64,000 nt of DNA from contig NZ_CP011786.1 of the NCBI RefSeq assembly GCF_001263395.1, forward strand, positions 1,488,001 through 1,552,000. The letters are read 5' to 3'. The notes beneath the pieces were generated by a model. It did not search any database, was not told where the DNA came from, and saw only the letters and a program-made list of their open reading frames with translations. Each line of letters begins with the position of its first letter. Position 1 is the first letter of the stretch. The translations under genes were made by a program, and so were the position numbers. Positions 55,703-61,404 of this stretch are shown here, piece after piece. The DNA is from Bifidobacterium actinocoloniiforme DSM 22766. GTDB taxonomy: Bacteria; Actinomycetota; Actinomycetes; Actinomycetales; Bifidobacteriaceae.

Positions 55703-57583
55703 TCATTGGAATTCCAGGGAATGCTCAAGCACGCCGCGCTCAGGCAGGGAGGGGATGATGCCCTCGTGGCCTAGGGAGAGGCCGGCGGCTTTGTTGGCTA
55801 TGCGGATGGCCTGGTCGAGCGGACGGCCGTAGAGCAAGTATGCGGCCAAGGCGCTGATGAAGGCGTCGCTGGCACCGGTGTCGGCCGCGGCTTTAACCGG
55901 AGTGGTTGGGAAATCCTGTTCGCCGTCGGCCGTGTAGAGGGTGCAGCCATCTTGGCCGGTGGTGACCAGGACCATGCCCGCCCCGTGGTTGATGAGGGCA
56001 TGGGCCTTGTCGGCGCGGCTGCCGGGACCGGGGCATAGGCGCTCCAACTCGGCGGAACCGGGCACCAGTAAGTCGCACTCGTGCAGCAGGCTGGAAGGCA
56101 GTTCGGCGGTATGGAAGGGTTTGATGATGGTCTTGGCGCCGTGGCGGTGGGCGAGGCGGCAGGCCTCTTCAAGAGCGGGGAAGGGGACCACGGTTTGCGC
56201 CAAGCAATACGAGGCCCGCTCGAACAGGTGCTCAGCGGCGCGCACGTCTTCCACGCTCATCAGCGCATTGGCACCGGCCGAGCGCGAACTCATGGTACGG
56301 CCCCGGTTGTCGACGAAAATATAGACTTTGCCGGTATCGCTACCGGGTTTGCGCCGGATGCCATCGGTGTCGACACCGCTCTCGGCCAGGTAGCGGTAAA
56401 TCTGGTCGGCTTGGCTGTCCGAGCCTACATTGGCGATGAGGGAGACGGGCTGACCCAGCTTGGCAACGCCGACCGCCTGGTTGGCCCCCTTGCCGCCGGG
56501 GACCGAGAAGGGGTCGTGGGAGTCCACCACGTTTCCGGCCTTGGGCAGGGTCGGCACGCCCAGATAGGTGTCGGTGTTGATGCTGCCCACCACCACGATC
56601 GAGCGCTGGGTCAGCTCGGCCGGCCCGGCCAGTGTGCGCTCGCTGCTTAAGTGGAAGGTCTGTGTGAAACCTGGCGCTTCCTTGCGGCCGCCTTCGATGG
56701 CGTTGACCATGCGGGTGCATAGGTAAGCGCCGAAATCCGCGTTGCGCATGGTGTAGGAGGATATCTCGCTGGAGCCCGGGTAGTGCAGCACTTCGCTGGT
56801 GTCGTTGCGCACGGTGAGGATGGAGAAGTCCTCGGGCACTCGGTAGTGCAGGCTGGAGGCGTATTGGAAGAGTTCCAGGGCGTGCTTGTAGTGGGAGGAG
56901 ACCACGCCGGTGACCTGTCGGGAGCTGATGCGCTCCATCAGGGAATCGCTTGGCTCGTGGATGACCATGTCCTCGCTGAACTCCATGTTGTGCTCGAACA
57001 GGCAGCGTTTGAAGCCGTTTAGGAAGCTTTCGGCGCGCCGGCCCGGGGTCAGCAGGCAGACCAGGTGCTTATGGCCGCGTTCGATGAGCTCCTGGGTCAG
57101 GCTGTATGACGCCTGCTCGTAGGGGAGCATGGTGAATTCGTCGTCGCCCAGGGGGCCGATGGTCAGCTCGGGAATATGGATTTCCGGGCGGCCCTTGCCT
57201 GGGAGCAAGCTGCCCGAGTCGACAGGCTCCCAAATCAGGCCGTCGACGCGCTGTGACAGTGCGGCGGCGATGTTGGCGCGTTCGCGCTCTCGGTCCTGGA
57301 AGCTGTTGAAGACCAGGGTGCCGTAGCCGTGGCTCTGGGCGGTCTGGACGATGCCGTCGATGGTGGTGTCGGTGGCGACGGAATCGCGCAGCAGGACGCC
57401 GATTCGCCAGCTGCGGCCGGGCTGGGCTGAGACTGAGGCGTAGGGGCGGTAGTGGTATTGCTTGACTAATTGGAGCACGCGCTCGCGGGTGGCCTCGGCG
57501 ATGCTGTCGTCTTTATGGTTGACGATTTTTGACACGGTTGACGTGGAGACGCCGGCAAGTTGCGCGATTTCTTTGATGTTCAT
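55703..57583 (-). CDS. LacI-family regulator fused to a PfkB/ribokinase domain
   Basis: This 626-residue protein joins two normally separate proteins. Residues 1-55 form a LacI DNA-binding domain (MNIKEIAQLAGVSTSTVSKI). About 58-320 form the periplasmic-binding-like effector domain. From 327 to the end is a complete PfkB sugar kinase with GSINTDTY, the substrate motif GGKGANQA (363-370) and the ATP/catalytic block DTGASDAF (568-575, presumed catalytic Asp573). The kinase motif lacks one residue of the common DTTGAGD form but keeps the aspartate. AAGGA about 13 bases before ATG 57583 supports the start, and no stop interrupts the joint. It is divergent from the nucleoside hydrolase genes and probably controls them while phosphorylating ribose or a nucleoside. 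Confidence 0.88.
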   Translation of the reverse strand: MNIKEIAQLAGVSTSTVSKIVNHKDDSIAEATRERVLQLVKQYHYRPYASVSAQPGRSWRIGVLLRDSVATDTTIDGIVQTAQSHGYGTLVFNSFQDRERERANIAAALSQRVDGLIWEPVDSGSLLPGKGRPEIHIPELTIGPLGDDEFTMLPYEQASYSLTQELIERGHKHLVCLLTPGRRAESFLNGFKRCLFEHNMEFSEDMVIHEPSDSLMERISSRQVTGVVSSHYKHALELFQYASSLHYRVPEDFSILTVRNDTSEVLHYPGSSEISSYTMRNADFGAYLCTRMVNAIEGGRKEAPGFTQTFHLSSERTLAGPAELTQRSIVVVGSINTDTYLGVPTLPKAGNVVDSHDPFSVPGGKGANQAVGVAKLGQPVSLIANVGSDSQADQIYRYLAESGVDTDGIRRKPGSDTGKVYIFVDNRGRTMSSRSAGANALMSVEDVRAAEHLFERASYCLAQTVVPFPALEEACRLAHRHGAKTIIKPFHTAELPSSLLHECDLLVPGSAELERLCPGPGSRADKAHALINHGAGMVLVTTGQDGCTLYTADGEQDFPTTPVKAAADTGASDAFISALAAYLLYGRPLDQAIRIANKAAGLSLGHEGIIPSLPERGVLEHSLEFQ

Positions 57584-57736: not shown

Positions 57737-57784
57737 TTGACAGCTTGTGGGGGCTCTGCTATCTTGTCGGGGGAAAAACGTTTC
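57737..57784 (+). promoter_or_regulatory. Promoter and operator of the first nucleoside hydrolase gene
   Basis: TTGACA (57737-57742) and TATCTT (57760-57765) are spaced by 17 bases. AAAAACGTTTC (57774-57784), a LacI-type CG-centred palindrome, lies just after them. It lies in the 274-base divergent gap with the regulator gene, so one site could control both directions. Confidence 0.75.
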
Positions 57785-57857
57785 GGAAAGTATTTTACTC
57801 CCATGCGTCTGTTGTGGGGACGGTCGGACTTCTTCGTGGAAAAGCAGGAATAGACCA

Positions 57858-58775
57858 ATGAATTCACGCCCAATCATCATCGACACCGACTCGGGGGTCG
57901 ACGCTGCCGCGGCCATCGCTCTCCTGAACGCGGAGCCCACTATCGACGTGCGGCTGGTGGCCAGCGTGGCGGGCCGCACCGCGGCGGACCAGGCGGCGGT
58001 CAGAGCCCTGAGGCTGATGACATTCCTGGGTGGGGCCACCCTGGTTGCGCAGGGCTCCAAGGGGCCGCTCGCCAGCTCGTCCGGTTTGCCGGAAGTAGGG
58101 CCCTGCCACAGCGACCTGGATGCGGCGGGTCTGCCCGAGCCGGACATGGGGCGCATGAGCCGGACCGGGGCGATTCTGAAGGAGCGGCGGATTCTGCTGG
58201 CCAGTGAACGGCCGGTCACGATGGTGACGCTGGGTCCGCTGACCAACCTGGCGCTGCTGCTGACCTCCTTCCCTGAAGTGCGCGAGCGCATCGAGCGCAT
58301 CGTGATGATGGCGGGCTCCACCGAACGGGGAGACGTGAGCCCGTATGGCGAGTTCAACGCGGTCTGTGATCCGCATGCGGCCGACGTGGTGCTGCGCTCG
58401 GGGCTGCCGCTGGACATGGTCGGTCTGAACGTGGGGCGCAAGCTGCTGCTGAACGAGGCGGATATGCCCGCGCTGGCGGCGACCGGGCGGACCGGCTCCA
58501 TGCTGGTGAGGCTGCTGAGGACCATGAGCGCCCGTTGCCAGGCCACGTTGCTGGCAGCGGCGCCTGCGGCCGCTATGTACCTGCTGGAACCCGGGCTGTT
58601 CACGACCCGTGGGGCCAGGGTCGACGTGGAGGTATCCAGCCCGCTGACCCGGGGCGCTACGGTCGTGGACTTCGAGGCTGAGCCCAACGCCACGGTGTGT
58701 GTGGACGCGGACAGCTGCGGATTCCGGGCGAGCTTCCTGCGGCGTATGGCCGCGCTCGACGGCGCGCGGAGGTAG
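57858..58775 (+). CDS. Nucleoside hydrolase homologue with degenerate active site
   Basis: This 305-residue member of the inosine-uridine nucleoside hydrolase family aligns across its length, with IIIDTDSGVD, LGPLTNLAL, EFNAVCDPHAA and ELFTTRGARVDVEV-like segments. Key positions differ. The family's DTDxGxDD calcium motif reads DTDSGVDAA, with the last aspartate replaced by Ala16. The HDPLA block reads AAPAA (Ala234, Ala235), losing the catalytic histidine and a calcium-binding aspartate. The EFN motif is intact. The protein is probably not an active hydrolase by the usual mechanism and may be a binding or regulatory paralogue of the next gene. AGGA precedes ATG 57858. Confidence 0.8.
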   Translation: MNSRPIIIDTDSGVDAAAAIALLNAEPTIDVRLVASVAGRTAADQAAVRALRLMTFLGGATLVAQGSKGPLASSSGLPEVGPCHSDLDAAGLPEPDMGRMSRTGAILKERRILLASERPVTMVTLGPLTNLALLLTSFPEVRERIERIVMMAGSTERGDVSPYGEFNAVCDPHAADVVLRSGLPLDMVGLNVGRKLLLNEADMPALAATGRTGSMLVRLLRTMSARCQATLLAAAPAAAMYLLEPGLFTTRGARVDVEVSSPLTRGATVVDFEAEPNATVCVDADSCGFRASFLRRMAALDGARR

Positions 58776-58790
58776 CGCGGAAATGCCAGG

Positions 58791-58819
58791 TTGCCAAATC
58801 TGATAAAACGTTTTATTGT
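58791..58819 (+). promoter_or_regulatory. Promoter with perfect palindromic operator for the second nucleoside hydrolase
   Basis: TTGCCA (58791-58796) and TATTGT (58814-58819) have a 17-base spacer. ATAAAACGTTTTAT (58803-58816) is a perfect 14-base palindrome centred on CG that overlaps the spacer and the -10. It shares AAAACGTTT with the site at 57775. Confidence 0.8.
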
Positions 58820-58924: not shown

Positions 58925-59881
58925 ATGAAGAAAATGATTCTCGATCTTGATACGGGCATCGACGACACCCTGGCCATTTCGTACGCCCTGGGCAGCCCTG
59001 AGGTGGAGCTGATTGGCATTACAAGCACGTACGGCAATGTGCTGCTTGAGCAGGGCATGCGCAACGATCTGGCGATCACCGACCTGCTGGGTCACCCGGA
59101 GGTCAAGGTCTATCCGGGCCTGCCCCACTCCTCCACGACCGACTCCTTCTCGGTGCTGCCGATTTCCGAGTTCATACATGGCAAGAACGGCATCGGCGAT
59201 GTGCAGATCCCCGATTCCACGCGCAAGCCCGAGACCCAGTCCGCTGTCGACTTCATCATCGACGCGGCCAAGACCTATGGCCAGGACCTGATCTATGTGC
59301 CCACCGGCCCTATGACCAATATCGCCGCGGCCCTCCGCAAGGCGCCCGAGATCAAGGACCAGATCGGCAAAATCGTGCTGATGGGCGGCGCCCTGACTGT
59401 ATGCGGCAACGTGTCCGCCTGGTCCGAGGCCAACATCTCCCAGGACCCCGACGCGGCTAACGAGCTCTTCCGCTCCGGCGCCCCGGTGACCATGATCGGC
59501 CTGGATGTGACCCTTCAGACGCTCCTGACCTATAAGGAGACCGCGCGCTGGCGCGACCTGGGCACCAAGGCCTCCGCCTTCCTGGCCGACATGACCGACT
59601 TCTACATCAAGGCTTACGAGACCACGTCTCCCCACCTGGGCGGATGCGGTCTGCATGACCCGCTGGCTGTGGCCGTGGCGGTCGATCCCACCCTGGTGAA
59701 GACCCTGCCGATCAACATGCAGGTCGATGTGGAAGGCCCCACCCGTGGCCGCACGATTGGCGACAACACGAGGCTGAACGACCCGCACAAGACCATGCAA
59801 GTGGCTGTCGAGGTGGACGTTCCCCGCTTCCTGAACGAATTCATGAGCCGCATCGGTGGGCTGGCCCAGCAGGCAGGCTGA
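58925..59881 (+). CDS. Nucleoside hydrolase (inosine-uridine preferring family)
   Basis: This 318-residue enzyme hydrolyses ribonucleosides to base and ribose. The calcium site DLDTGIDDT (Asp7, Asp9, Asp13, Asp14), PTGPMTNIA and the catalytic block GLHDPLAV (His244, Asp245) are intact. The EFN substrate motif appears as EAN. AAAGGTG precedes ATG 58925. It lies 149 bases after the degenerate paralogue and 110 bases before an MFS transporter. Base specificity cannot be read from the sequence. Confidence 0.92.
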   Translation: MKKMILDLDTGIDDTLAISYALGSPEVELIGITSTYGNVLLEQGMRNDLAITDLLGHPEVKVYPGLPHSSTTDSFSVLPISEFIHGKNGIGDVQIPDSTRKPETQSAVDFIIDAAKTYGQDLIYVPTGPMTNIAAALRKAPEIKDQIGKIVLMGGALTVCGNVSAWSEANISQDPDAANELFRSGAPVTMIGLDVTLQTLLTYKETARWRDLGTKASAFLADMTDFYIKAYETTSPHLGGCGLHDPLAVAVAVDPTLVKTLPINMQVDVEGPTRGRTIGDNTRLNDPHKTMQVAVEVDVPRFLNEFMSRIGGLAQQAG

Positions 59882-59991
59882 CCACACTTTGGCCGGTCCG
59901 TCCACAATAAGGCCCGGCGGGCGGCGCAATCCGACACGCCGCATACAATTTGAAATTGGCAACGTAGTTTGCACACAAGAAAAGGAACACT

Positions 59992-61404
59992 ATGACTGAG
60001 TCGTCAACTCGAGCGGCCGTCGATCCATTCGACGACCCGGAGACCAGCAACAAGATGGCCGTCCGGGCCCTCGTTTTCCTCCTTATCACCTTCATCCTGG
60101 GCACCTTGTGCCTGCAAGGATTCAACCTGGTCTTCCAGCAGGTCGGTAAGGATGTGGGCGCGGTCCAGCAGGCCTCGCTGATCACGGCCCTGCCGAGCAT
60201 CGTGCTGGGAATTGTCTGCTTCATCTACGGGTCGCTCGGCGACTTCGTCTCCCTCAAAAAGCTGGTGGTGACCGGCCTGGTCGTCCTCTTCATCGGCTCC
60301 ATCTTCGGTTTCGTGGCGAACTTCTTCTTCACCGCCAACCTGTGGACGGTCATCATCGCCCGCATCCTGCAGACCGCGGGTGAGCAGGTGGCTGGCTCGG
60401 TCTACCTGGTCGTCACGACCAAGTACCTCAAGCCTTCGCTCAAGGTGGTGGCCTTCGGTGTCTTCACCGCCGGCTACCAGGTCTCCGCGGCCATCGGCGT
60501 GTTCGCTGCCGGCTTGCTCAGCTCCATCTCCTGGCAGTACCTGTTCCTGATTCCGGCGATCACCATCTTCTTCCTTCCCGCCCTGCTCAAGTCCCTGCCG
60601 AACAAGAGCGGCTCCGGCGATAAGGTCGATTGGTTGGGCTTCACCATCTTCGGTCTGGCCACCGCATTCCTGACCTTGTTCTTCTCCTACACCAAGGTTT
60701 GGCTGCTTATCGTGGCCGCTGCGCTGTACGTCGTGTTCGGCGTATACATCACCAAGGCCAAGGACCCGTTCGTGACCCCCGAGTTCTTCAAGAACACCCG
60801 CTGGATCATGGCTATCTGCCTGATTCTGTTCTTCTACTTCAACAACTACTGCATGTCGCCCATCTTCAACGCGATCTGCCGTGACGTGTTCGGCATCACC
60901 AACTCGGCCACCGTCTCCATGCACATCGTCTGGGCCTTCCTGGTGGCGGCGTTCTTCGGCACCACGTCCGGCGCGATCGTGGACAAGATCGGCCGTCAGC
61001 CCACGCTGATCATCGCCGCCTGCCTGATGATCGTGGGCTGGGCCGGTTCCGCCTTCGTCATCTCGTCCGGCCTCATCCCGCTGACCCTGATGGCATGCGT
61101 GTTCTACGCGGGTGCAGGCCTCATGTACTCCCCGGTGGTCTCCACCGTGCTTGACACCCTGCCTAAGGAGCAGTCGGGCCGTGGCGTGGGCATGAACGAT
61201 CTGGTCATGAACGTGACCGGTTCAATCGGCATCGCCATCTTCGGTGGCCTGATGGCCGGCACCGGCCTGGGTGGCGGCTCCATCGCTGGAGGCGCCGGCC
61301 AGCAGGCGGTCTACGCCAACTTGCTGCTGATCGCGGCGGTCATCGCGGCCCTGGGCCTGGTCATCTACCTGGTCTTCCGCAAGAAGATCTACGCCGAGGA
61401 CTGA
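59992..61404 (+). CDS. MFS transporter, probable nucleoside or related uptake
   Basis: This 470-residue major facilitator protein has 12-14 predicted helices and the family loop YGSLGDFVSLKKLVVTGLV between helices 2 and 3 (GxLaDrxGrkxxl type). Another loop, GAIVDKIGRQPTLIIAA, marks the second half. The substrate is unknown; the neighbouring nucleoside hydrolases suggest nucleoside or nucleobase transport. AAAAGGAA precedes ATG 59992. A strong terminator follows. Confidence 0.82.
   Translation: MTESSTRAAVDPFDDPETSNKMAVRALVFLLITFILGTLCLQGFNLVFQQVGKDVGAVQQASLITALPSIVLGIVCFIYGSLGDFVSLKKLVVTGLVVLFIGSIFGFVANFFFTANLWTVIIARILQTAGEQVAGSVYLVVTTKYLKPSLKVVAFGVFTAGYQVSAAIGVFAAGLLSSISWQYLFLIPAITIFFLPALLKSLPNKSGSGDKVDWLGFTIFGLATAFLTLFFSYTKVWLLIVAAALYVVFGVYITKAKDPFVTPEFFKNTRWIMAICLILFFYFNNYCMSPIFNAICRDVFGITNSATVSMHIVWAFLVAAFFGTTSGAIVDKIGRQPTLIIAACLMIVGWAGSAFVISSGLIPLTLMACVFYAGAGLMYSPVVSTVLDTLPKEQSGRGVGMNDLVMNVTGSIGIAIFGGLMAGTGLGGGSIAGGAGQQAVYANLLLIAAVIAALGLVIYLVFRKKIYAED

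Follow-up and report, generated by a model that had tools for sequence, protein, structure and literature searches.

The window, by which we mean the whole 64-kb stretch of Bifidobacterium actinocoloniiforme DSM 22766 DNA that was analyzed, carries on its reverse strand a gene for a 626-residue protein in which a LacI-type helix-turn-helix (HTH), a LacI core and a PfkB/ribokinase domain follow one another in that order. Next to it on the forward strand lie genes for two nucleoside hydrolases, both of the IU type, and for an MFS transporter. The features of the locus are:

55703..57583, reverse strand: LacI-PfkB fusion gene, ATG start at 57583, 626 aa; an uninterrupted open reading frame with no stop
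57443..57580, reverse strand: LacI-type HTH, residues 2-47 (PF00356); the best-conserved part of the fusion family
57410..57442, reverse strand: hinge-helix region of LacI proteins, residues 48-58; its signature is missing here and in nearly all fusions
56669..57409, reverse strand: LacI core (periplasmic-binding-protein-like), residues 59-305 (PF13377/PF00532); canonical effector Arg and Asp replaced
55739..56605, reverse strand: PfkB/ribokinase domain, residues 327-615 (PF00294); base Asp retained
57737..57765, forward strand: sigma70-like promoter TTGACA-17-TATCTT with a TG preceding the -10, located ahead of hydrolase 1
57768..57801, no strand assigned: composite site of two dyads set 13 bp apart, predicted as the operator of the fusion; it lies immediately past the -10 (matrix from 23 loci)
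57858..58775, forward strand: nucleoside hydrolase 1 (RihC-like; PF01156, NCBIfam), divergent from the fusion and its predicted target
58801..58818, no strand assigned: RbsR2/RbsR3-type operator TGATAAAACGTTTTATTG, a near-perfect match to the published motif
58925..59881, forward strand: nucleoside hydrolase 2 (UriH/RihA-like; PF01156, NCBIfam)
59992..61404, forward strand: MFS transporter 3' of hydrolase 2 (Pfam)

The original prediction, that LacI DNA-binding and effector domains and a PfkB kinase are encoded in one unbroken frame, is borne out, in that all of these Pfam domains are recovered from 626 residues without a stop. These are the HTH (PF00356, residues 2-47, 1.7e-14, 53.8 bits against a cut-off of 27), the LacI core (PF13377, 43.7 bits, cut-off 26.5; PF00532, 24.9 bits, cut-off 22.2; Peripla_BP_3 match at residues 164-302, 4e-11) and the kinase domain (PF00294, residues 327-615, 2.5e-48, above the cut-off). 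The kinase part resembles ribokinase most closely, yet its 223.7 bits lie below the 299.65 cut-off of the NCBIfam RbsK equivalog TIGR02152, under which several genuine-looking stand-alone kinases also score. The predicted kinase domain has the same fold as E. coli ribokinase with ribose and ADP (1rkd; Z 43.1, 1.7 Å over 301 residues), with which it shares 33% identity. In the predicted structure of the window protein, the hinge region forms no helix, and pLDDT drops below 50 at residues 49-54.

A search for orthologues with the same domain order returned matches from Bifidobacteriaceae, Lachnospiraceae, Enterococcus and another actinomycete. Of 189 Bifidobacteriaceae genomes, 22 encode full-length collinear fusions, 44-70% identical to the window protein, and the end-to-end alignment of those in the 21 other genomes rules out a frameshift or assembly join near 56590-56620. 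Collinear versions are also present in 27 of 348 sampled Lachnospiraceae (most of them full length), on two Enterococcus raffinosus plasmids and in a single actinomycete among 245 other sampled genomes of the same phylum; further end-to-end relatives come from Anaerostipes, Mediterraneibacter, Ruminococcus and Ruminiclostridium. Separate domains in all close relatives, the outcome set beforehand as speaking against the fusion, are excluded by the collinear fusions in those relatives. In a maximum-likelihood tree, the kinase halves of the fusions constitute a single clade with a support of 100/100, whose sole unfused row, L110_5578, is itself a truncated fusion. The LacI-PfkB fusion is thus genuine, old and present in two bacterial phyla. 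Its ancestral state was likely a pair of separate, adjacent lacI and rbsK genes, such as those in two Bacillota genomes (L068 and L070) and on Thermus plasmids. We found no description of a LacI-ribokinase fusion in the open-access journal literature, and an InterPro-type listing of architectures very likely already contains the LacI-PfkB arrangement. Two irregular forms were seen among the relatives: at L110:4688-5578, a second, truncated copy lies close to a full-length one, and in L062/L066 (G555) the fusion is split into two overlapping 358-residue frames, one with the LacI part and the other with the kinase part, by a frameshift or a secondary split.

In LacI and PurR, an Arg and an Asp of the core hold the effector, and a Leu of the hinge helix inserts into the minor groove; these roles are established for LacI and PurR, although our own literature search on the effector and hinge residues returned nothing. 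We compared these positions between 51 fusions and 17 other LacI proteins (15 from the window's own genome and two from separate lacI-rbsK pairs). The Arg of the R-x-x-G motif, which we take to be the equivalent of LacI R197 and PurR R190, is found in 15/17 controls as against 0/51 fusions, and the first Asp of the D-D motif in 16/17 as against 0/51. The hinge Leu is retained in 15 of the controls, as opposed to just five of the fusions, the window protein not being one of them. Its lack of both the hinge Leu and the hinge helix makes the window protein a divergent member of the LacI family, and the residue losses suggest that the effector pocket in the LacI core of the fusions has decayed.

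For the kinase domain, the 51 fusions were set against 46 other PfkB kinases, taken from the same genomes or from related ones, using E. coli RbsK numbering. The sugar-site residues N14, D16, G42, K43, N46 and E143 are retained in 46-51 of the fusions, and the catalytic base D255 in 50. The GxGD glycine is G in 45 of the 46 other kinases, the one exception being a truncated fusion, as against only 11 of the 51 fusions, with A (19), S (18) or C (3) in the rest. The fusions therefore appear to have kept the ribokinase sugar pocket while altering the phosphoryl-transfer loop; residual catalysis is quite possible, because D255 is almost invariant and the glycine persists in a minority. In the best-sampled group, dN/dS is about 0.10 for the kinase domain and for the LacI core alike, indicating purifying selection on both. 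A PfkB signature pattern was discarded, as it missed many good stand-alone kinases. The L029 fusion has a wholly degenerate kinase active site (NGSA for GGKG and K for D249) in a full-length architecture.

The suspected tie of the fusion to nucleosides or ribose is backed by its genomic context. Among the 40 fusion loci with flanks, 34 have a nucleoside hydrolase no more than about 8 kb away, six having none nearby, and 26 have a separate PfkB kinase within the same distance, none being seen in the other 14. In the usual layout, shared by Bifidobacterium, Anaerostipes and Mediterraneibacter, the fusion is divergent from genes for the S component of an ECF transporter (CD3073-like), the T component and two ATPases, after which come a PRAI-like protein, a PfkB kinase and a nucleoside hydrolase. 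The conserved divergent operon can be seen at L074:9662-17503 and L031:1-5738, with the CD3073-like ECF transporter, the PRAI-like protein, a PfkB kinase of the GGGTxANT type and the hydrolase. Queuosine salvage was considered as the role of the ECF locus, and no support for it was found. The window clade has lost most of the ECF-type layout and retained the adjoining hydrolase. The MFS transporter at 59992-61404 probably carries nucleosides or ribose, a substrate read from its position only.

A palindrome close to TTAGGAAAATATTTTCCTAA recurs in the regions upstream of the fusions, and exactly 13 bp further along comes a second dyad. When a matrix derived from 23 loci, none of them from the window clade, was scanned over both strands of the window, its top match was 57768-57801, with 21.5 bits versus 11.0 for the next independent place (29412); the latter reads like 23S rRNA sequence and was taken as chance. 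The top match begins 3 bp past the -10 of the hydrolase-1 promoter, where a repressor would sit. Likewise, with a matrix trained without Enterococcus, the top score in an 18-kb Enterococcus plasmid stretch, an unrelated locus with the same gene set, falls precisely in the interval that separates the fusion from the ECF S component. These held-out rankings are the tests on which we rely, the p-values of consensus matches being partly circular since the consensus derives from the same loci. Some fusion loci have no operator match. A genome scan with a single dyad for more fusion operators yielded weak, scattered matches no better than a reversed-pattern control, and such a scan would itself miss the diverged operator of the window.

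Two sites, at 57774 and 58803, had been put forward as operators of the fusion. The first holds up as the second dyad of the conserved predicted composite site; the second instead matches the motif of RbsR2 and RbsR3. These Bifidobacterium regulators, for which rbsK is listed as a gene separate from the regulator, recognize TGATAAAACGTTTTATCA (Khoroshkin et al., 2016; PMC4746261). They resemble the fusion in exerting LacI-family control, within one bacterial family, over genes for nucleoside hydrolases, transporters and ribokinases, and differ from it in their motif, that of the fusion being TTAGGAAAATATTTTCCTAAAATGTTTTCTTA. The RbsR2/RbsR3-type motif is present in the window's own genome at 58801, before hydrolase 2, and at one other place, 201601, where it lies next to the genes for a separate LacI protein (200269) and for a stand-alone kinase (201935). 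Because the sole other copy of the motif has these neighbors, the genes for hydrolase 2 and the MFS transporter probably answer to a separate RbsR-type regulator, and it is probably this regulator, not the fusion, that 58801-58818 serves.

We propose, with a probability of roughly 0.56, that the protein is a single-chain repressor of the LacI family which controls a nucleoside-salvage operon and whose captured ribokinase domain acts as the ligand sensor. The fusion is most likely a repressor of such an operon. Sensing would have moved to the kinase domain, because the LacI pocket decayed while the ribokinase pocket was kept with an altered phosphoryl-transfer loop; further, as the GxGD glycine is mostly lost and a separate PfkB kinase is at hand in 26/40 loci, the domain probably serves as the sensor and not as the main enzyme. 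Thus, of the original prediction that one chain senses, controls and phosphorylates, the single chain stands, but the picture of two working domains only in part, given the absence of the core effector residues from all 51 fusions and the frequent loss of the glycine. Likewise, of the two roles it offered for the kinase, a real enzyme or a ligand sensor recruited from one, the second is the better fit to a kept sugar pocket with that same loss.

Mechanistically, the HTH would block transcription by binding the composite operator, which separates the fusion gene from the salvage operon diverging from it and in the window lies at 57768-57801, just past the hydrolase-1 promoter. After nucleoside cleavage, the kinase fold would bind ribose or a closely related compound together with ATP/ADP, and closure of the kinase lid would be transmitted via the LacI core, now chiefly a dimer scaffold, to release the DNA. 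Any phosphorylation by the fusion would be secondary, because separate kinases are available. We infer repression, the identity of the ligand, the allosteric direction and the near or complete absence of catalysis alike from sequence.

For the subfamily as a whole, we give even odds to a history in which a single fusion was followed by the loss of the native effector pocket and the hinge helix, the captured ribokinase domain came to sense ribose (or a nucleoside), the operator is a composite with dyads offset by 13 bp, and the sensor of the window clade is evolving towards either a new ligand or independence from ligands. E. coli RbsK has the ribose Glu E143, N187, the K+-site residue D249 and the GxGD glycine G254; in the window protein all four are changed (E143V, N187G, D249A and G254S), with the equivalent of D255 present. 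E143V is common to all four species of the clade, and N187 is replaced by G or S in three of them. Because the kinase pocket is altered again here, the ligand or the response in the window clade may differ from the ribose case, or the response may be weak, and sugar binding in this clade is uncertain.

Three other readings have to be weighed against a sensory kinase domain. Under the first, the protein would be truly bifunctional, in that an active ribokinase also represses, its turnover being coupled to gene control through the loss of ribose or the build-up of ribose-5-phosphate. This accords with the nearly invariant base Asp, the retention of most sugar- and ATP-site residues, the purifying selection on the kinase domain, the 14 loci with no separate kinase nearby and the precedent of RikA, a ribose kinase of the PfkB type for which a DeoR-type domain is predicted at the N-terminus. 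We nevertheless hold it to be unlikely, since the A, S or C that replaces the GxGD glycine in 40/51 fusions occurs in no genuine stand-alone kinase compared, a separate kinase accompanies most loci, the window copy has four active-site changes, and in L029 the fusion persists with its kinase site gone altogether. It is more doubtful still that the LacI core senses a ligand of its own, with altered specificity, and carries the kinase domain as a structural or vestigial passenger. Although the core is under purifying selection equal to that on the kinase, and the kinase site is decaying in the window clade (E143V, N187G, D249A), it is the core that has lost its effector Arg and Asp throughout while the kinase kept its sugar pocket and a dN/dS just as low. 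The neighboring separate lacI-rbsK pairs of L068, L070 and the Thermus plasmids might, for their part, suggest that adjacent rbsR and rbsK genes were joined by ordinary read-through or by an artefact of assembly. However, those pairs retain the hinge, the effector Arg and the GxGD glycine, and the identical collinear fusion recurs in dozens of independent genomes from two phyla as one clade, so that this reading has next to no probability; the independent collinear genomes and the single kinase clade refute an origin by assembly join or frameshift.

A kinase-type sensor has a parallel in the ROK repressors (NagC, Mlc and XylR), wherein a sugar-kinase fold serves as the sensor of the repressor; these differ from the fusion in their hexokinase-type ROK fold, as opposed to PfkB, and in lacking a LacI core. 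E. coli RbsR and RbsK represent the same two partner families as separate proteins. RikA/STM3547 of Salmonella is a ribose kinase of the PfkB family whose annotation includes a DNA-binding domain at the N-terminus. This domain is a DeoR-type HTH alone, without a LacI core, and the authors present evidence against production of the N-terminal extension under the conditions that they used (PMC13432705). If our reading of the fusion is right, it exemplifies how a modular transcription factor swaps its sensor, with a metabolic enzyme from a neighboring gene of the operon becoming the ligand detector as the original detector decays. Many 'ribokinase' annotations in fusion-bearing genomes may then be repressors. 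The analysis also specifies a sequence-predicted operator and the exact residues concerned, and delineates a conserved nucleoside-salvage locus of gut and bee bacteria comprising the fusion, an ECF transporter, a kinase and a nucleoside hydrolase.

Two further observations concern the genome of the window. The segment with hydrolase 2 and the MFS gene (58925-61404) is about 90% identical to its counterpart in B. xylocopae, the neighboring fusion only 69%; in L079, a species from a different genus, the values are 89.6% for hydrolase 2 and only 48% for the neighboring fusion. A recent transfer of this segment is possible, because its identity far exceeds that of the adjoining fusion. Elsewhere in the genome, the canonical rbsK (C1:1637812-1638691) is broken into two frames with several stops, and the RbsK-like kinase gene at 201935 is intact.
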